Source of the DNA: Bacteroidales bacterium
GTDB taxonomy: Bacteria > Bacteroidota > Bacteroidia > Bacteroidales > UBA932
NCBI GenBank assembly: GCA_017544265.1
Contig: JAFYEM010000014.1
Span: 1-55,837 of the forward strand
Reading direction: 5' to 3'
Length of the DNA stretch: 55,837 nt
The notes below the pieces were generated by a model that was given only the letters and a program-made list of their open reading frames with translations, was not told the DNA's origin and ran no database searches. Position 1 is the first letter of the stretch. Every line of letters starts with the position of its first letter. Of this stretch, positions 45,885 through 53,607 are shown in pieces. Position numbers and translations under genes: made by a program.

Positions 45885-46673
45885 TTATTTTAGTTTAAAT
45901 TTATATGTTATAGTACCAATCTGGACCGGCGGGGCGTCTGCGGAAGGATTGAAGTGGGCTTTCAGGGCGGCTCCGCGGGCGGCGTTCCACAGGGACTTGT
46001 CCGTCACCGTGGTACCCTCCACGCCGGGAATCGCCTCCGTCACCGTGCCGTAGGAATCCACCTTTATCTGCACCACAACTATGCCCTCTGTCTGGGCGTT
46101 GTACGCCGGTTTTGGAAGAGTGCCCATTACGCTGCGGCCCTGCAGGTGGGCGTTGGCGGCACCTTCCGTCCTGCCTTCCTTAGTGTTCCCTGTCGCCTGC
46201 CCGGCCTTGAATGTATCTGAACCTTCTTTTGCCGAATGAGGCGAGGTCAGAGTAGTATCTTTCTTTGACATACCGGGGAATGTGGCCCGGGGGTCGAGTT
46301 TCGGCTCCTCGACAGGAGGCGTCGGGACATCCACGTCGCCATGGGCGTCAGGTTTTGTTGCGGGAGTGAGGTTCGGCTTCTCGCTCAGATAGGGCGATTC
46401 GCTCCGCTGAACCAGTTCCACTTCCCTGGTGCGGTCCACCTCGTCCGCCTGCGGCTGCCGGCCGCTGCGGCTCTCGACAATACGCTCGGGCTCCTCGGTC
46501 TGATCAGTGAAATCCACGACGAAAGACGTTTCAGGAGGTGGCGGGTCGAGGTATTTCAGCCCGGTCATCACGCAAAGAAGCGCCGCGGCGGCATGGACCC
46601 CGACAGTCAGCAGGAGTCCGGTCACCTCAGCCTTGCGGCCGTCGGAGCGTCTTGTGCGAAGATATGGTTTCAT
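45885..46673 (-). CDS. tonB: TonB-like energy transducer
   Basis: TonB passes proton-motive energy from ExbBD to outer-membrane transporters such as SusC. The 262-residue protein has one N-terminal membrane segment (LLLTVGVHAAAALLCVMTGL), a long polar/Pro-containing spacer (about 45-185) and a C-terminal domain with EGIVVVQIKVDSYGTVTEAI and a terminal YKFKLK strand. It overlaps exbD by 4 bases (ATGA). The order exbB-exbD-tonB makes a complete set. The spacer carries several VDVPTPPVEEP-like stretches typical of TonB. Confidence 0.87.
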   Translation of the reverse strand: MKPYLRTRRSDGRKAEVTGLLLTVGVHAAAALLCVMTGLKYLDPPPPETSFVVDFTDQTEEPERIVESRSGRQPQADEVDRTREVELVQRSESPYLSEKPNLTPATKPDAHGDVDVPTPPVEEPKLDPRATFPGMSKKDTTLTSPHSAKEGSDTFKAGQATGNTKEGRTEGAANAHLQGRSVMGTLPKPAYNAQTEGIVVVQIKVDSYGTVTEAIPGVEGTTVTDKSLWNAARGAALKAHFNPSADAPPVQIGTITYKFKLK

Positions 46674-47080
46674 TCAGGCTGGGTTGCAAGAATTACTTTG
46701 TAGTGGTTCCGCTTGGCTATGTTCATCATGGCCACGACCTCTTTCACCGGCACACTTTCGTCCGAATAAATGGAGAAAGTGGGGTCTTCCTCGCCCTGGA
46801 GAAGGTCCACGAGCTGCGCCTCGGCCTCTTCATAGCTGACAGGGACCTCGCTGCCGTTGATGTGGTAGGTGTAGCTGTCGTTGTGCCAGTCCTTGATGCT
46901 GACGCTCACCGTGGCCTTGGCGCTGACCTGGCCGGTGCTTCTCGGGAGCAGCAGCTTGAGGGCGTTGGGGTTGATGAGAGTCGATGTCACCAGGAAGAAA
47001 ATCAGGAGCAGGAACACGATGTCGGTCATGCTCGAGAGCGCAAACGACGAATCCACCCGGGTTGTTCTCTTGAGTGCCAT
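46670..47080 (-). CDS. exbD: Biopolymer transport protein ExbD/TolR
   Basis: ExbD forms the proton-driven motor with ExbB. The 136-residue protein has one N-terminal membrane helix (SMTDIVFLLLIFFLVTSTLI) with the functionally important Asp just inside it, and a periplasmic domain ending MMNIAKRNHYKVILATQPE. It lies 4 bases after exbB and overlaps tonB by 4 bases. Confidence 0.95.
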   Translation of the reverse strand: MALKRTTRVDSSFALSSMTDIVFLLLIFFLVTSTLINPNALKLLLPRSTGQVSAKATVSVSIKDWHNDSYTYHINGSEVPVSYEEAEAQLVDLLQGEEDPTFSIYSDESVPVKEVVAMMNIAKRNHYKVILATQPE

Positions 47081-47084
47081 AGGT

Positions 47085-47834
47085 CTATTCTTCCTCGGAG
47101 GGTTCGTTAAGGACTATGTCGATGAACTCCATAGTGGAGGACTCCATCTTATACACAAGGTCGGAAACCTTGGATGTGAGCCAGTTGTAGCCGAAGTAAG
47201 CGATGATGCCGACGATAAGACCGCCCACGGTGGTGAGCATCGCGGTGTAGATACCGCCGGAAAGCAGGGTTATGTCTATGTTGTTGCCGGCCTTGGACAT
47301 ATTGAAGAAGGCCTGGACCATACCCATGACTGTGCCGAGGAATCCGATCATCGGGGCGCCGCCGGCGATGGTCGCAAGCAGCGGAAGACCCTTCTCCAGA
47401 CGGGCGACCTCGACATTGCCGATATTCTCTATCGCGGACTGCATGTCGCCCATGGGACGGCCGATGCGATGGATGCCGGTTTCGATCATGCGGGCGACAG
47501 GATTGTCATACTTGCGGCAGAGGGTGACGGCGGATTTGAACTTGCCCTCACCGACATAGTCGCGTATATCATCCATGAAGTTGGGGTCTATCTTCGAGGC
47601 CTTGCGAAGCACCCACCACTTCATGCCGATGATGTAGATGGCGAGAATCGAAAGGGCCAGTAGTACCCACATCAGCGGACCGCCCATTTTGAAAAGGTCG
47701 AAAAGACTCTCGGACATTTCAGCCGGGACTATCGCCGCCGGTGCCGCCTGCTCTGCTGCAGAGGAAGCCGCTTCCTGCAGCGCGGCTCCCAGAGTATCAG
47801 CTTGTAAAAGATTGAAAATCATATTTATTAACAT
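47085..47834 (-). CDS. exbB: Biopolymer transport protein ExbB/TolQ
   Basis: ExbB is the proton-channel subunit of the TonB motor. The 249-residue protein has three membrane segments (about 50-75, 150-175 and 190-215), including TIAGGAPMIGFLGTVMGMV and YTAMLTTVGGLIVGIIAYFG. The start may be the ATG at 47834 or another at 47822. An Ala-rich segment (about 14-40) precedes the first helix. It begins 20 bases after the stop of the nuclease gene on the same strand, so it might be cotranscribed with that gene. Confidence 0.94.
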   Translation of the reverse strand: MLINMIFNLLQADTLGAALQEAASSAAEQAAPAAIVPAEMSESLFDLFKMGGPLMWVLLALSILAIYIIGMKWWVLRKASKIDPNFMDDIRDYVGEGKFKSAVTLCRKYDNPVARMIETGIHRIGRPMGDMQSAIENIGNVEVARLEKGLPLLATIAGGAPMIGFLGTVMGMVQAFFNMSKAGNNIDITLLSGGIYTAMLTTVGGLIVGIIAYFGYNWLTSKVSDLVYKMESSTMEFIDIVLNEPSEEE

Positions 47835-47854: not shown

Positions 47855-49387
47855 TTAAGGATTCCATAGCTTTGTCCCCCAGTCGGTGCCGCCCACAGGC
47901 GAAATGCTGCTGTAAGAGGAGGATCCCGTAGTGAACCAGGAGGGATTGGTGTTCGACTCGGCCTGCTCCTGGAGAGTGGATGGAACTCTCGGGAAGAAGT
48001 CGAATCCGGCTCTGGTCTCGACTGAGTCTATCGACCTCACATAGCCGGAATCATCATAACTGTCATAATGAGGCTCGTTCGTATAGACAAAAGCTATTCC
48101 CTTCGCATCGGTAACGGCGCCCGAAGTGTTGAATGAGCACTTCATTATGCACTTGTAGAAGTGGCTCGGAATCGGCACGTCCAGGCTTCCGCTCTTCTTC
48201 GTGGTTATTTCTCCCTCGTAAAGGACGCCAGTGACGACATAGAGAGTGTCCCTGGAGCCGACTTCGGGCGCCAAAGCGGCCACCCTCTGCTCAAGGCTGC
48301 TCCAGACCCCGCTGTTGAATTTATCCTGCCACTGGGGTGCCTGGTTACTGTAGTAAAATGTCTGACTATTCTGCTCCGAGGTAGTCTGACGATAATTGGA
48401 AGCAACCAGATGTCCGCGGCTGTATCCTACCGTGGATGCGTTGTTAAGGCCGCTCTGCTGCGTAAGGGAAATCCCCGGATCTGAAGCCCAGGCGCTGTTG
48501 TCGCTGCGCCCGACATTATTGTCCGGCCACATACCCTTGTGCATTGCATGGGCAGTCCAGACAGGCGCATACCTGGTTTCATCGTAAAGGACGGTAAAAT
48601 TGCGCGTCTGTTTCCCGGCAGGAGATGAGTTCTTATAGGTGTGGGTCACAAGCTGCCGGCTGGAATTATTGGTATAATACCTGTACCAGAAATCGTCGCG
48701 GTCGTCGCGGCTGTCCGCCCTTACAGCTTCCCCGCTGAGGGAGGATATGATGTCCGGGACCTCATAGCACTCCAGGTAGCCATAGGTGGACACCGGACTC
48801 GCCTTTGAGGTGGTGAAGGTCTTTACGTTTCCATAACGGAATTCATAGTCCCCGCTCTCCTCGTTATACTCTCCCACGTATGCCTGATAATAATACGTGG
48901 TATTTTCGCTGAGGCCTGTAAGGGTTGCCGAGAACGGAGATGCGGTGCTGTCGCCCATGGCGTCGCCGTTCATGCTGCTCTGCGAAAGTCCCCATACGAA
49001 ACCAGTGTAATCCACTCTTCCGGAGGCTCCGGTGTAAAAGCCGCCGAGGGTGGCAGTCGCCTGACCCACCAAAGTGGCGGCGCCCGTGGTCACGGACGCC
49101 GTAGCGACCTTCCTTGTAGTGAAGGAGCACACGGCACCGTAAATGGTACTGCTCTCGGAGGAATGATCCCCGCTGCCGCTGACAGTAACGAAGGCCTGAT
49201 AGTAATAGGTGGTACCCGCGCTGAGCCCGAATATGGCGGCGGCAAGGCTTCCGCCGGTGCTGTTTGCTGCCGCGGAAACTGTCCGGGAAAGGTTTTCCTG
49301 GGAAGTCCCCCATCTGAATCCCGCCGCCGACGGCACAGACGTCGCCCCCGCGAAGGAGCCCGACAGGGTCGCCCCTGTCGAACTCAC
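47855..49387 (-). CDS. DNA/RNA non-specific endonuclease domain protein, open frame back to an upstream UGA
   Basis: The product has two Ig/FN3-like modules (about residues 1-90 and 95-195; GLSAGTTYYYQAFVTV, GLSENTTYYYQAYVGE) and a NUC1-type nuclease domain (about 210-500). The catalytic His is in YSRGHLVAS (about residue 326). YYSNQAPQWQDKFNSGVW contains the metal-binding Asn region. It would be a secreted nuclease, but it has no signal peptide. The frame continues upstream without a stop through a Gly/Ser linker to the UGA that ends the 1333-residue lipoprotein gene, in the same frame. The first possible start in this frame is GTG at 49387-49385. It may therefore be the C-terminal half of one long protein. 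Confidence 0.8.
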   Translation of the reverse strand: MSSTGATLSGSFAGATSVPSAAGFRWGTSQENLSRTVSAAANSTGGSLAAAIFGLSAGTTYYYQAFVTVSGSGDHSSESSTIYGAVCSFTTRKVATASVTTGAATLVGQATATLGGFYTGASGRVDYTGFVWGLSQSSMNGDAMGDSTASPFSATLTGLSENTTYYYQAYVGEYNEESGDYEFRYGNVKTFTTSKASPVSTYGYLECYEVPDIISSLSGEAVRADSRDDRDDFWYRYYTNNSSRQLVTHTYKNSSPAGKQTRNFTVLYDETRYAPVWTAHAMHKGMWPDNNVGRSDNSAWASDPGISLTQQSGLNNASTVGYSRGHLVASNYRQTTSEQNSQTFYYSNQAPQWQDKFNSGVWSSLEQRVAALAPEVGSRDTLYVVTGVLYEGEITTKKSGSLDVPIPSHFYKCIMKCSFNTSGAVTDAKGIAFVYTNEPHYDSYDDSGYVRSIDSVETRAGFDFFPRVPSTLQEQAESNTNPSWFTTGSSSYSSISPVGGTDWGTKLWNP

Positions 49388-49436
49388 CTCGCCCGGAGTC
49401 GAGTCAGTAGTTACCGTAGCTGCGGGCTCCTGCCCC

Positions 49437-49455
49437 CCGGAGGTTCCGCCTCCGG
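49437..49455 (-). promoter_or_regulatory. Stem-loop directly after the UGA, possible readthrough signal
   Basis: CCGGAGG and CCTCCGG form a perfect 7-bp stem around a CGGAA loop on the mRNA strand, beginning 7 bases after the UGA (49465-49463). The location resembles stimulators of UGA readthrough, but a Gly/Ser codon run can make such a stem by chance. No T-run follows, so it is not a terminator. Confidence 0.35.
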
Positions 49456-49462
49456 ATCCGCT

Positions 49463-52400
49463 TCAATCGGTGTAAGTAACAACTATACTCTTGACGTAAA
49501 TAGCTTTGGCTGCTTTTGACGGTTTTGTAACAGTAACAATTATTTCACCTGCCGCAGAACCCGCAAAAGTATACTTCGCAGCAGATGAGCTCAGGGATTG
49601 GGCATTGCCGCCAAAGGCAGCTCCTCCTACGGTTACATCAGCAGACGCAGTTACTCCGGAGGCCGTAGATGCATTCACGACAACCTTGGTTATGGTCCCC
49701 GGAATATCACTTGTTGCCAACTTGATGTACTGGACTTGGGCGCTACTGGTTCCATAATGGATACCTTTGGTGCTATCATAAGAGGATTCTGTTCCGTCTG
49801 AAGTAACAGTCCATACGGCACCATCGTCAGCAGTCCCGCTTCCGTTACATTTATCAGTAAAGATAAGAGAACTCGTTTTAGTTGTTCCTCCACCTGCGAC
49901 AGAGAAAGTCTTGGAAGCAACACCTGTCACGAAACCATCCTTCTCGGCTATAGCCTTGACTGTGGTAGTTGCCGTGATGTTCAATGCAGCAGAATACACA
50001 CTTGAAGATGTTGTGGGAGCCAATCCGTCAAGCGTATAATAGATCGTTGCACCACTTGCCGCCGAGATAGTCACTGACGTAGAGGTTGAGAAGTTTTCTT
50101 CCCCTGATATTACAGGTTTTGCCAAAAGGCTCTGAATAGCGCAATTCGAATCGAATTCAGGAATATTGTTGTTATGGTTCTTTATCTTGCCTTTTACAAG
50201 GACCGCATCACCAGCCGCAACAGAACTAGAGTAGCTTGATTTTTCACGATAAGCCATAAACTGAGCGGCAGTGGACGAGCCATCCTCTGAGATATTGAAT
50301 GACACGTTTCCGTATTGTGAATTATAGGCAGTAGTTATTGCGCTCACGATACCTTTTACATAATACTCAGTGGTCGAAGCTGTTGTACCCTGAGCCTGAG
50401 CGGCCGCAATGGCTTCAGAAACAGTAAAAGGTTTTTCGAGAGAACCGTCATTGGCTCCGGAATTGATGGTATAAACGGTAGTCGCCACGCCGGAGGACAC
50501 GCCCGCCTTGACGGCTATCGCCCTGACGGTTGTTGTCGCCGAAATCGAAAGAGGAGAACTGTAAACCAGGGAATTGCCTGTTGGAACGCTGCCGTCCAGA
50601 GTGTAGTAAATAGTTGCACCGATTTCTGCGGAAAGAGTAACATTCTGCGCTTCGGTGTATATGCCTCCTGCAGGAGAGAACCTGGGCGCGCGGAACACTG
50701 AAACAACCTCGTTGTTCTCCTTGAATTCAGCCTGATTGCCATTGTAATACATAAGTGTACCGGTAGCCACGACAAGGTCACCTACGTTGAGATTGGTTTT
50801 ATCCGTGAAATCTGCGCCGCCGATATACTTGCCTTTGTACATCTCAAACTTACTGTCGGTGGAACCGTCGTCCGAGACATAGTAATTAACCTGACCGCTG
50901 GTGTTGATCGATCCGCTCTGGCAGACAATGCCTTTCACATACGCATTTTCAAACTCGGAAGCCGGATTCGCCTGCGCGATTGCGATTGCTGCAGATGCAG
51001 AAATAGGATTGTCTGCAGTTCCGACATTCACGACAACATTTTCTTTCACCACGACTGTATAGCTTGCAGATGCAGGCTTGTAGTTGACAAGGTCGGTAAC
51101 CTCAACTTTAACGGTAATAGTACCGGCGCCGGTGATTGAGAGTTCGCCTTCGTCATTGATGGTGGCGATTCCGGAAGGGACTGTCTCGACTGAGAACCCG
51201 AAAGGAGCGTCAGGATTGACTATGAGATCGGGGCCTTCGAAGCTGTCGCCGAGAGTAATTTCGAACGGGCCAGCCGGGTCAAATGACATCTCCACCTCGG
51301 TACGGGTGTCCACGACAGGGGCCCCACCGTCAAGTTTATAGAGGGCTATTGCCTTCTGAGAAGCGTATGAGGCAGATTTATAATATCTGAACCGCAACTG
51401 GTTAGAAGCCGAATTATACCTCAGATAAGCGCCGCCAGAGACTATATCAGCATTTCCGTCCGTATCAAGACTGACAGTGTTGGCTATGGGGCTGTCACTG
51501 CTTGCGAGACCATTGGCATCGGAATTCTGACCGATATACTTGCCGATGGCGGAAAGAATACTGTAACCTCCCTCCGGAAGTGCCGCGATTGTGAACTGCG
51601 CCGCAGGGACGTTCGAGCCGGGAGTGCAGGCGATCTTGCCGCCGCTGATGGTAACAGGAATGCTGTTCCCGACTGCGTCGAGAGGATCCAGGCTGCCGTC
51701 AAATGCCACGGCGCCATCCTCATAGACAATCAGGTACTGGCCGCTCCAGTCGGAAGGTTCGGAAGTGACCTTGGTGTAGAATGTGTCACCTCCGCCCTGG
51801 GTCTGGACAGTGACGCTGGTCACTGCAGCCGCGGACTCCTTGTAGTCGTCGTTCTCAGAAGGAACAGCCGTCACGCTGATTTCGTAGGTGCCGTCGGGAA
51901 GGGCTTCGAATTTCGCGGACTGGACGCCGGCGGCGATAGTCTGGGGATTATAACCTTCACAGGCCACCCTGTAGGTCACGGTAACTCCCTGAGGAGCGGC
52001 AATATCTGTCCAGGATACCAGGACATCAGAGCCCTCGGCTTCCGCCTTGACATTTGTCGGGGCGGCGAGAGGAGTCTTGACCACGGCCGAGCCGGCCTTC
52101 ATGTAGAGGGCAACGCCAACGCCCGTGGTTGCCGTGGATGCGTAGCAACTGAAGATAGGAGGATTGTTAGTATGGTTGCAGCGCATCATGTTGCGGGTAT
52201 TGCTGCCCTGCGCAATTAAAGTCGCTTCTCCGGTAGTGCCGTTTATTTCAATCGACCAGGAACTGTTGTCGGAGAGATCCGTTTCTGTCCTCAACCAGTT
52301 TGAACCGGAACTGGCCGCGTACAGATAACCATCTCCAGTATTGAACGCAAAAGTGTTGGCTTTATTGCCAGCTTCAAGAGTCAGAATCTGCACCGCGGCA

Positions 52401-53464
52401 CCGGGACTGGAAATAATCTCACCGTCGGAAGACTTGAGCTGCTCGACAGCTGCGCGGTTATTAGCGTTCTGTGTTGTGCCGAGCGCATAGTTCTGCCCAA
52501 AACCGGCAATGATAATTTCACTGCCTATGGCAAGATCCGCCGCATCCTTGACCAGCACATAATCGACCGCGGCATCGGCGGTGACGCCGTCCATGGGAAT
52601 GGAGAACGCGGCGACTTTACCGGAAGCGAACACCTTGCCTGCAGGAATGGTGATAGTCTTGCTGTAAGTAGTTCCCTTGTCTGTGGTGACGACGGCCTTG
52701 ATGTTCTTTCCGCCCAGATCGACGGGGGCGCAGGCGAACCAGATATCAGACGAACTGGTAGTGACAAGAGTAATGGTCTTGCCGGCGGAGTTGGCTACAA
52801 TATCACCTTTCGCATTGGCCTCGGTGGTCTCCAGATAGTAATAATAACGGCCGGCCCAGTTCTCGTCGGCGGTAAGGGAGATGGACTCAATCGCCTCGCC
52901 GTCCGCAAGGGAAAGATTGGAAAAACTTACTTTACCATAAGCGGTAATGTGCGCGAAATCAGCGAGACTGACACTCTCGGGGAAAGTGCTCAGTTCAGCG
53001 CTTTCGCTTACCAAAATCTGAGCTTTTTCATCCACGGAATTGCCAAGCGGCGTCTGGGAAGCGGGAATATCCACCTGGACAGACTTGTAACTGTTGCTGA
53101 CACTTATCACGGAAGCGTAGGGACTTACCGCATAGAATTTGAAAGAACTCGCTTCTCCGGCTTCAAGTTCGACATCAAAACGAGCCGTGGTGCCGTCGGA
53201 AGAGGGCTCCGGAGCAGATGACTGCTTGACCGTCGCGAAATTCAGGGAAATACCGACTGCCTGATTGCCCGTCCAGAGTGTCGGATACTTATTCCCTTCC
53301 TTGTCGCCGAAGACGGTCTTGGATTCGATGGATTCAGCGATAAAGCTGACAGTACGGGTCTGAGCGGAGGGACGCTCAATGGAGGAATCAAGTTCTTTTG
53401 CGCAAGACGCAAAGGCGAGGGCTGCTACTGAGAGCGCGAAAATGCTTTTTACCAAATTTTTCAT
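49463..53464 (-). CDS. Large multidomain surface lipoprotein with OB-fold and chitobiase-type C-terminal modules
   Basis: A 1333-residue predicted lipoprotein (MKNLVKSIFALSVAALAFASC, Cys21). The modules in order are: a fimbrillin-like N-terminal domain (about 35-290); a beta module containing YLYAASSGSNWLRTETDLSD (about 300-460); FN3 (about 470-560, APTNVKAEAEG); a second beta module (565-720, WSGQYLIVYEDG); an Ig-like domain (730-815); an OB-fold-like DUF5689-type domain (820-930, YVKGIVCQSG); a chitobiase C-terminal-like module (YYTLDGSVPTG); a second OB (1010-1120, YVKGIVSAI); a second chitobiase-like module (YYTLDGLAPTT); and a C-terminal module (1197-1333) shared with SusE. Such OB folds accompany secreted nucleases, and a nuclease follows in the same frame after the UGA. 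No catalytic domain is recognised within it. Confidence 0.82.
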   Translation of the reverse strand: MKNLVKSIFALSVAALAFASCAKELDSSIERPSAQTRTVSFIAESIESKTVFGDKEGNKYPTLWTGNQAVGISLNFATVKQSSAPEPSSDGTTARFDVELEAGEASSFKFYAVSPYASVISVSNSYKSVQVDIPASQTPLGNSVDEKAQILVSESAELSTFPESVSLADFAHITAYGKVSFSNLSLADGEAIESISLTADENWAGRYYYYLETTEANAKGDIVANSAGKTITLVTTSSSDIWFACAPVDLGGKNIKAVVTTDKGTTYSKTITIPAGKVFASGKVAAFSIPMDGVTADAAVDYVLVKDAADLAIGSEIIIAGFGQNYALGTTQNANNRAAVEQLKSSDGEIISSPGAAVQILTLEAGNKANTFAFNTGDGYLYAASSGSNWLRTETDLSDNSSWSIEINGTTGEATLIAQGSNTRNMMRCNHTNNPPIFSCYASTATTGVGVALYMKAGSAVVKTPLAAPTNVKAEAEGSDVLVSWTDIAAPQGVTVTYRVACEGYNPQTIAAGVQSAKFEALPDGTYEISVTAVPSENDDYKESAAAVTSVTVQTQGGGDTFYTKVTSEPSDWSGQYLIVYEDGAVAFDGSLDPLDAVGNSIPVTISGGKIACTPGSNVPAAQFTIAALPEGGYSILSAIGKYIGQNSDANGLASSDSPIANTVSLDTDGNADIVSGGAYLRYNSASNQLRFRYYKSASYASQKAIALYKLDGGAPVVDTRTEVEMSFDPAGPFEITLGDSFEGPDLIVNPDAPFGFSVETVPSGIATINDEGELSITGAGTITVKVEVTDLVNYKPASASYTVVVKENVVVNVGTADNPISASAAIAIAQANPASEFENAYVKGIVCQSGSINTSGQVNYYVSDDGSTDSKFEMYKGKYIGGADFTDKTNLNVGDLVVATGTLMYYNGNQAEFKENNEVVSVFRAPRFSPAGGIYTEAQNVTLSAEIGATIYYTLDGSVPTGNSLVYSSPLSISATTTVRAIAVKAGVSSGVATTVYTINSGANDGSLEKPFTVSEAIAAAQAQGTTASTTEYYVKGIVSAITTAYNSQYGNVSFNISEDGSSTAAQFMAYREKSSYSSSVAAGDAVLVKGKIKNHNNNIPEFDSNCAIQSLLAKPVISGEENFSTSTSVTISAASGATIYYTLDGLAPTTSSSVYSAALNITATTTVKAIAEKDGFVTGVASKTFSVAGGGTTKTSSLIFTDKCNGSGTADDGAVWTVTSDGTESSYDSTKGIHYGTSSAQVQYIKLATSDIPGTITKVVVNASTASGVTASADVTVGGAAFGGNAQSLSSSAAKYTFAGSAAGEIIVTVTKPSKAAKAIYVKSIVVTYTD

Positions 53465-53469
53465 AGCTC

Positions 53470-53607
53470 TTAGTCGTCAAGTGTTCCCCAGTCTTCTTCC
53501 TCGGCAGGCTGGATACCGGTTCCTTTGATGGAAGTCAAAAAGTTCTTCTCATAGCCCAGGTCGCGAAGCCTCAGAGAAGGTTGCAAGTAAGTTTTTTTAT
53601 TATCCAT
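53470..53607 (-). CDS. 45-residue mini-protein upstream of the large lipoprotein
   Basis: This short frame begins with ATG at 53607-53605 and ends with TAA, 5 bases before the lipoprotein ATG. The product starts MDNKKTYLQPSLRLRDLGYE and ends IQPAEEEDWGTLDD. There is no signal peptide. The middle (NFLTSIKGTG) is mildly hydrophobic and the end is acidic. Similar short proteins with a YxxP start and an acidic, Trp-containing tail occur in Bacteroidales beside surface-protein genes, from memory. A -7 promoter (53643-53650) lies just upstream, so it heads the operon. The function is unknown; it may couple translation or act as a peptide itself. Confidence 0.6.
   Translation of the reverse strand: MDNKKTYLQPSLRLRDLGYEKNFLTSIKGTGIQPAEEEDWGTLDD

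Follow-up and report, generated by a model that had tools for sequence, protein, structure and literature searches.

Structure-driven readthrough of stop codons is known mainly from viruses and animals, the alphavirus and plant-virus elements being cases in which it is stimulated by a structure. In a bacterial host, the leaky UGA of the Q-beta coat gene gives rise to the A1 protein, in which a C-terminal domain is added to a surface protein, and bacterial selenoproteins are recoded with the help of SelB and a bacterial selenocysteine insertion sequence (SECIS). Here we analyse an element on the reverse strand of contig JAFYEM010000014.1 of a Bacteroidales bacterium (the window, 55,837 nucleotides), where the frame of a large surface lipoprotein ends at a UGA and the same frame, passing through a series of hairpins, runs on into a nuclease domain. 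We consider it likely (probability roughly 0.8), on comparative sequence evidence, that the element is a programmed UGA readthrough signal stimulated by RNA structure, which would add the nuclease to a fraction of the surface lipoproteins.

As in Q-beta A1, a leaky UGA in a bacterial host would add a C-terminal domain to a surface protein; A1, however, belongs to a phage gene, whereas the RNA element described here had matches in 95 of the 400 genomes sampled from one bacterial genus. With the bacterial selenoproteins the locus has in common a UGA followed by a stem-loop, but here the UGA precedes a linker, and SelB and tRNA-Sec scored below their cut-offs in 34 of 34 carriers. Readthrough in RNA viruses, represented by murine leukaemia virus gag-pol as described in PMC5009743, likewise involves two domains separated by one in-frame stop, with an RNA structure a few nucleotides (nt) 3′ of it and short and long products to be expected; gag-pol has a pseudoknot, whereas the present element consists of hairpins with GNRA loops, lies in bacterial chromosomal genes with changing lipoprotein partners and is known from sequence. 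Among the matches listed by our literature searches, no title or abstract reported conserved non-selenocysteine readthrough in bacterial chromosomal genes. If the proposed readthrough is true, the element would be such a case, with about a hundred natural variants and their covariation to guide the choice of mutants. As an annotation that ends at the UGA leaves a nuclease without a start, similar cases may hide elsewhere, and the element also brings up a possible link, one that can be tested, between recoding and the domain shuffling of surface proteins.

The UGA junction and its recurrence in relatives

The original prediction, made from the window alone, held that the lipoprotein ends at a UGA behind which its frame stays open for 535 more codons, and reading of the open reading frames (ORFs) bears this out: the nuclease frame begins SGSGGGTSGGQEP, its codons 49462-47858 are open and a TAA follows at 47857-47855. 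The frame was also said to lack a signal peptide and a credible start. Its earliest ATG, GTG or TTG is indeed the GTG at 49387, and no signal sequence was seen after it in this frame. The predicted 7-bp stem (CCGGAGG/CCTCCGG, 7 nt after the UGA) is likewise present at 49455-49437, but it is only the first of three hairpins (P1), the second (P2) and the 13-bp third (P3) having been overlooked. The 121 nt from the window UGA fold at -64.3 kcal/mol (z -3.3), and 0/200 shuffles were equally stable. No known RNA family scored above its gathering score when window positions 48800-49800 were compared with Rfam (best E 0.085, 23.4 versus 65.6 bits), and no repeats of at least 24 bp occur within 49345-53476.

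A nuclease-frame search of 61 genomes, in which the better loci were inspected, found the order lipoprotein, UGA, nuclease five times, namely in the window, at a paralogous locus of the window's own genome (G000:C8) and in three other species (G006, G034 and G008). The exact P3 pattern occurred at four places in the same 61 genomes, every one of them among these five junctions. Allowing up to two mismatches, the pattern matched 47 places in 43 of the 400 genomes of the genus; five 2-mismatch places (in G017, G230, G193, G116 and G410) were left unparsed, and of the 42 parsed, 36 lay in a frame longer than 200 codons and six did not. In all 36, the first upstream stop was a TGA, located 60-93 nt before the hairpin. 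The P3 pattern excludes the stop codon, so this result is not built in; the set of 36 junctions was itself filtered on TGA, yet no long frame had another stop. The upstream frames were cut by a contig end in L102, L108, L113 and L128, and comprised only 85 codons in L130. None of the 36 has a sense codon in place of the UGA, which excludes the recent nonsense mutation that had been offered as one origin of the window stop.

A covariance model of the element (R1) gave 113 matches in the 95 genomes mentioned above, the weak ones being partly inspected; 36 matches were parsed through the P3 set, 47 separately, and 30 weaker ones belong to neither. TGA stood at the modelled position in 46 of the 47 further matches, some of which are broken or lie at a contig edge, and L115 is decayed. 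R1 was built from TGA rows, and TGA among its matches is therefore partly built in, while the P3-based scan and the any-stop scan described below are free of this. The UGA and the stem thus both recur in many genomes, and the arrangement is not due to chance.

Named loci from the nuclease search contributed 50 UGA junctions among 79 by a strict rule, and L230 and L270 add two with short upstream frames. The named records are mostly metagenome-assembled genomes of rumen and gut Bacteroidales, and several are the same contigs as loci from the genus genomes. Across 247 genomes of the order, R1 matches were confined to the window's own genome and a single marginal site in G519 that is not a nuclease junction. 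The junction was also present in records labelled Alistipes, Tidjanibacter or Rikenellaceae (L273, L275, L278, L290, L294 and L296), and restriction to one genus is therefore not established. Two record titles look wrong: L261, titled Spirochaetales, carries the same element, and L292, titled Bacteroides, appears to be the genus locus G178:C3. A sequence search of viral contigs yielded 24 candidate distant nuclease loci of 25-35% identity. Orthologues of the last 400 lipoprotein residues were found in 13 of 151 genomes and were mostly partial; three of the longer matches (G073, G174 and G024) belong to lipoproteins that form UGA loci of their own.

The stop codon was then read in all fetched loci, in a scan that accepted any stop codon. 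After deduplication by the first 120 residues, 94/94 nuclease frames without a signal of their own followed an ORF in frame across one stop, which was always TGA. The minimum length set for the upstream frame was 150 codons, lowered to 15 where it ran open into a contig edge, and 83 of the 94 were complete with at least 250 codons; a lipobox-like N-terminus was recognized by a simple pattern in 76 of these 83. The set originally held 95 rows, one of which (L056) was spurious and was removed, although the fold z, start-codon and GNRA counts given below still include it. Seven nuclease frames with their own signal in the same scan followed TAG (5), TAA (1) and TGA (1), and 567 other ORFs in the loci, taken mechanically and uncurated (ATG to stop, at least 250 codons, longest first), ended in TAA (264), TAG (171) or TGA (132). 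Because the loci are related by descent, a multiplied probability for 94/94 TGA would not be a true significance. The first five nt 3′ of the UGA vary while the UGA itself is invariant; this speaks for retention of the UGA in its own right, as opposed to its being carried along in a block of homology. The base after it (+4) was A in 58, C in 18, G in 16 and U in 2 of the 94, as compared with U in 44 of the 132 TGA-ended control ORFs, and A occupied the second place of the last sense codon in 92/94 versus 49/132 of the same controls.

Hairpins behind the UGA and the nuclease frame

Synonymous shuffles served as the reference for structure behind the UGA. Over 95 rows, the first 39 codons following it had a mean z of -3.1, with 0/100 shuffles equally stable in 52 of the 95, and control stretches from the same frames, at codons 60, 120 and 160, gave mean z values of -0.42, -0.37 and -0.31. 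Two types of element were distinguished. In type A, which has P1, P2 and P3, 95.6% of cells were paired versus 34-51% when the structure was slid along the alignment, and 69 cells were changed on both sides. In type B, one longer hairpin with its own covariation takes the place of P1 and P2, and 99% of cells were paired versus 35-60% when slid. The covariation scores were reached by 0/500 shuffles for both types; the structures were derived from the sequences on which they were scored, which favours them. A stem of at least 5 bp started 3-12 nt after the UGA in 93/94, and stems with at least six Watson-Crick pairs were present in 78/94 versus 6-20/94 in controls. Moreover, the P3 region formed a hairpin with a four-base loop in 85/95, and this loop was GNRA in 73/95, while control stretches gave 8-17/95 hairpins and 0-2/95 GNRA loops.

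The frame behind the UGA is under purifying selection at the protein level. Its ratio of nonsynonymous to synonymous divergence (dN/dS) was 0.06-0.31 in 33 of 40 listed pairs (57 considered; 74-92% identical), the other seven being dS-saturated. In the first 42 codons, the uncorrected synonymous difference was usually far below the corrected dS of the rest of the frame, the two measures not being identical; such a low synonymous difference is as expected of an overlapping function. The nuclease of the window matched Endonuclease_NS (PF01223) with E 2.3e-37 and 129.2 bits, against a curated cut-off of 23, so that the nuclease named in the original prediction stands; for its Ig-like modules, the matches of immunoglobulin (Ig) or fibronectin type III (Fn3) kind were weak and below cut-off. 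PF01223 was also found at E 0.001 in 36/36 rows of alignment A2, and among solved structures NucA, EndoG and EXOG came closest (2o3b and 1zm8, E about 3e-12). The columns H351, N383 and E391, which we take to be catalytic residues, were invariant in 36/36 nuclease rows. DRGH is a motif of the NucA/EndoG-type family. The domain thus resembles the NucA, EndoG, EXOG and Serratia-type nucleases in sequence and in its H, N and E columns, but the window copy has SRGH in place of DRGH and is encoded as what would be a conditional C-terminal extension of a lipoprotein. We infer that the encoded extension is a NucA/EndoG-type nuclease, with activity predicted.

These observations bear on the idea of a pseudogene arising from a nonsense mutation, an assembly error or a fusion scar. 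A single stop does separate the two frames and some copies elsewhere are decayed, but the same UGA and hairpins occur in many genomes, dN/dS is well below 1 and the active-site-type columns are invariant; as a general explanation it is refuted, and we give it practically no weight. Apparently decayed elements and nucleases, with extra stops or frameshifts after the UGA, were noted in L199, L201, L207 (second match), L119 and L031:7713-7811. In L206, L207, L196 and G232:C76, two UGA junctions lie within a few kb of each other, on opposite strands or in tandem.

The nuclease also occurs in a second arrangement. Among 153 nuclease domains classified, 101 were without a signal of their own, each directly after a TGA, and 52 were labelled own-signal, 46 of these with a strict lipobox; of the six without one, five showed, on visual inspection, a plausible signal or membrane anchor, whereas L021 was ambiguous. 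On the nuclease tree, the own-signal and UGA states needed 17 changes versus 43.5 in shuffles, suggesting that the UGA arrangement persists in clades and was gained or lost several times. This tree left out ten rows open at a contig edge, and seven rows were assigned to the UGA state by hand, all preceded by TGA. No match to the element was found in 40 of 44 fused, own-signal or remote nuclease loci, which makes the fusion scar that had been envisaged for the window unlikely. The four matching loci were L015, a UGA locus misplaced there; L031 and L236, which share one contig and probably represent a decayed junction; and L020. Beside the nuclease gene in L031, L032, L035 and L038, a lipoprotein of ~560-585 aa and a secreted protein of ~600 aa (AVPA..G..TQPDGS) recur, on the other side in L038.

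The nuclease might instead be made by re-initiation or internal initiation behind the UGA. An in-frame GTG or TTG does occur in the first 60 codons of 73/95 frames and could serve such a start, but an in-frame ATG is present there in only 14/95, at scattered positions, and the product would be an exported-type protein without a signal peptide. Furthermore, initiation behind the UGA would require neither the same frame nor UGA only, and we regard it as quite improbable.

Candidate decoding of the UGA

The position of P1 just behind the UGA is superficially like that of a bacterial SECIS, which brings up the possibility that the UGA encodes selenocysteine, or that the lineage has reassigned UGA as an amino-acid codon. 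SelB exceeded its cut-off in 0/34 carriers and 2/14 controls, and tRNA-Sec in 0/34 carriers and 5/14 controls, although the best carrier score for tRNA-Sec, 46 bits, came close to the cut-off of 47. The eight best tRNA-Sec-like loci proved to be tRNA-Leu or tRNA-Ser, and the long SelB matches, in frames of ~400 residues and covering position 1 to about 270, resemble EF-Tu. As regards reassignment, release factor 2 (RF2) was present in 8/8 carriers and TGA ends 132 of the 567 control ORFs. Reading of the tRNAs of G000 (35 calls) and G172 (51 calls) revealed none with a UCA anticodon, the lists being incomplete and some tRNAs being counted twice through overlapping flanks. The tRNA-Trp has the anticodon CCA in four copies (L147, L149, L150 and L368, the last from its sequence). 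Selenocysteine or reassignment therefore seems very improbable.

In the same four tRNA-Trp copies, the anticodon stem is topped by a G-U pair (positions 27-43 in our numbering), and according to PMC13092985, breaking this anticodon-stem pair raises UGA readthrough by E. coli tRNA-Trp. In G172, the tRNA-Trp gene (L368, G172:C35:292732-292805, minus strand) shows an apparent 17-nt tandem duplication in the D-arm region, either real or an assembly error, and ARAGORN calls this gene tRNA-Pro.

Under the proposed programmed readthrough, the majority of ribosomes would terminate at the UGA, releasing the complete surface lipoprotein. Hairpins a few nt downstream would disfavour termination by the presumably competing RF2, and a near-cognate tRNA, probably tRNA-Trp, which would then supply the inserted residue, may decode the UGA in a fraction of passages, at whatever rate readthrough would have. 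The ribosome would go on through a Gly/Ser linker and the Ig-like modules into the NucA/EndoG-type nuclease, which might be exported and anchored by means of the signal of the lipoprotein. The putative outcome, and perhaps the purpose, would be a surface on which a minor fraction of the lipoproteins carry the nuclease, with the surface location and the nuclease activity both predicted. Programmed readthrough, one of the three options in the original prediction, is supported here and accounts jointly for the identity of the stop, the common frame, the selection on the downstream frame, the structure and the missing starts. That one stop codon and the folded RNA behind it recur in roughly a hundred genes, in a group of uncultured bacteria of gut and rumen, points to occasional readthrough by ribosomes, which would yield a second form of the protein tipped with the nuclease.

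Exchange of the segment before the UGA and features of the window

The segment before the UGA differs between close relatives, an exchange that the original prediction had overlooked. Among eight pairs compared, one (L103/L126) was continuous through the junction; four pairs share the earlier part of the lipoprotein and differ just before the UGA (L129/L133, L181/L190, L208/L214 and L126/L283), and three have no match inside the lipoprotein (L116/L117, L206/L219 and L192/L196). In the seven non-continuous pairs, homology resumes between -12 and +7. For example, identity between L129 and L133 is about 97% over -4352 to -461 and again from +7 onward, and the 461/488 nt just before the UGA are unmatched. 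Among 38 pairs with nuclease identity above 70%, the last 150 upstream residues were less than 35% identical in 35. In the listed part of 322 rows, homologues of the last module either terminate at a TAA with unrelated sequence behind it (L134 and L217) or sit inside larger proteins. The part before the UGA thus forms a natural C-terminal module, as had been proposed, and the UGA-terminated product looks complete, with the nuclease looking optional.

This exchange underlies the main competing explanation, in which the hairpins are a structured DNA recombination junction, the exchangeable ends bring their own stop, and the nuclease is silent or is expressed after rearrangement, with no readthrough. 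The mismatch of L129 and L133 confined to the stretch before the UGA and the dissimilar upstream ends of the 35 pairs speak for such a junction. However, exchanged natural ends should bring TAA or TAG, whereas all 94 stops are UGA although the next five nt vary, and the downstream frame is under selection. In addition, the GNRA loops and the G-U pairs on the sense strand suggest RNA, although type B has two C-A cells. A recombination junction thus accounts for the exchange and not for the identity of the stop or the frame, and we consider it unlikely, if clearly less so than the other competing explanations. The readthrough and recombination roles may both be true of one element. As a tentative extension, which we hold at somewhat less than even odds, the element might be a dedicated UGA recoding signal of RNA hairpins in a bacterial genus, independent of selenocysteine and tied to domain exchange, in which the same bases would serve as switch and as swap boundary and a captured module would gain a regulated nuclease extension.

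Several observations weigh against programmed readthrough. The element coincides with the boundary of upstream exchange, and part of its conservation could serve recombination. Two of five covariation measures were weak; shuffles scored as high for further pair types in 55/500 (type A) and 278/500 (type B), and for pairs changed on both sides in 18/500 (type A) and 2/500 (type B). P2 was paired in only 80% of cells, a P1-like stem was missing in 1/94, and a P3-like hairpin was missing in 10/95 rows, including L038 and L294. GNRA is not absolute either, as four loops are GCCA and eight others are single types, and some copies of the element are broken. As to the codon context, the frequent A at the second position of the last sense codon may stem from the protein module. 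Finally, U at +4 lowers readthrough in E. coli mainly for UAA, as stated in the abstract of PMC5289835, which weakens the argument from the avoidance of +4 U.

The features of the window locus are collected in Table 1.

Table 1. Features of the lipoprotein-UGA-nuclease locus in window coordinates.
Feature	Position	Strand	Basis
ORF of the surface lipoprotein (1333 aa); CHB_HEX_C / Fn3_assoc modules, weak OB-fold match; proposed short product	49466..53464	-	ORF and profile matches
Segment of ~140 aa preceding the UGA; differs between close relatives elsewhere, boundary chosen by us	49466..49885	-	Exchange seen in relatives, not in the window
UGA (TGA), putatively recoded; preceding codon GAT, following base A	49463..49465	-	Sequence and conservation
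P1, CCGGAGG-CGGAA-CCTCCGG, starting 7 nt 3′ of the UGA	49437..49455	-	Sequence, folding, covariation
P2, GGGC-AGGA-GCCC, the weakest helix of the family	49424..49435	-	Sequence, folding, covariation
P3, GAGTTCGACAGGG-GCGA-CCCTGTCGGGCTC, 13 bp, GNRA loop	49356..49385	-	Sequence, folding, covariation
Two Ig/Fn3-like modules, approximate boundaries	48788..49426	-	Weak below-cut-off Pur_ac_phosph_N / PhoD_N matches
DNA/RNA non-specific endonuclease domain, frame residues 280-495	47978..48625	-	Profile, structure-database and alignment matches
Nuclease frame 3′ of the UGA, 535 codons and TAA	47855..49462	-	Open frame

After the nuclease frame, genes for ExbB and ExbD and a TonB-like gene (below cut-off) follow at window positions 45885-47834 on the minus strand, and the start of ExbB lies 20 nt beyond the stop of the nuclease frame.

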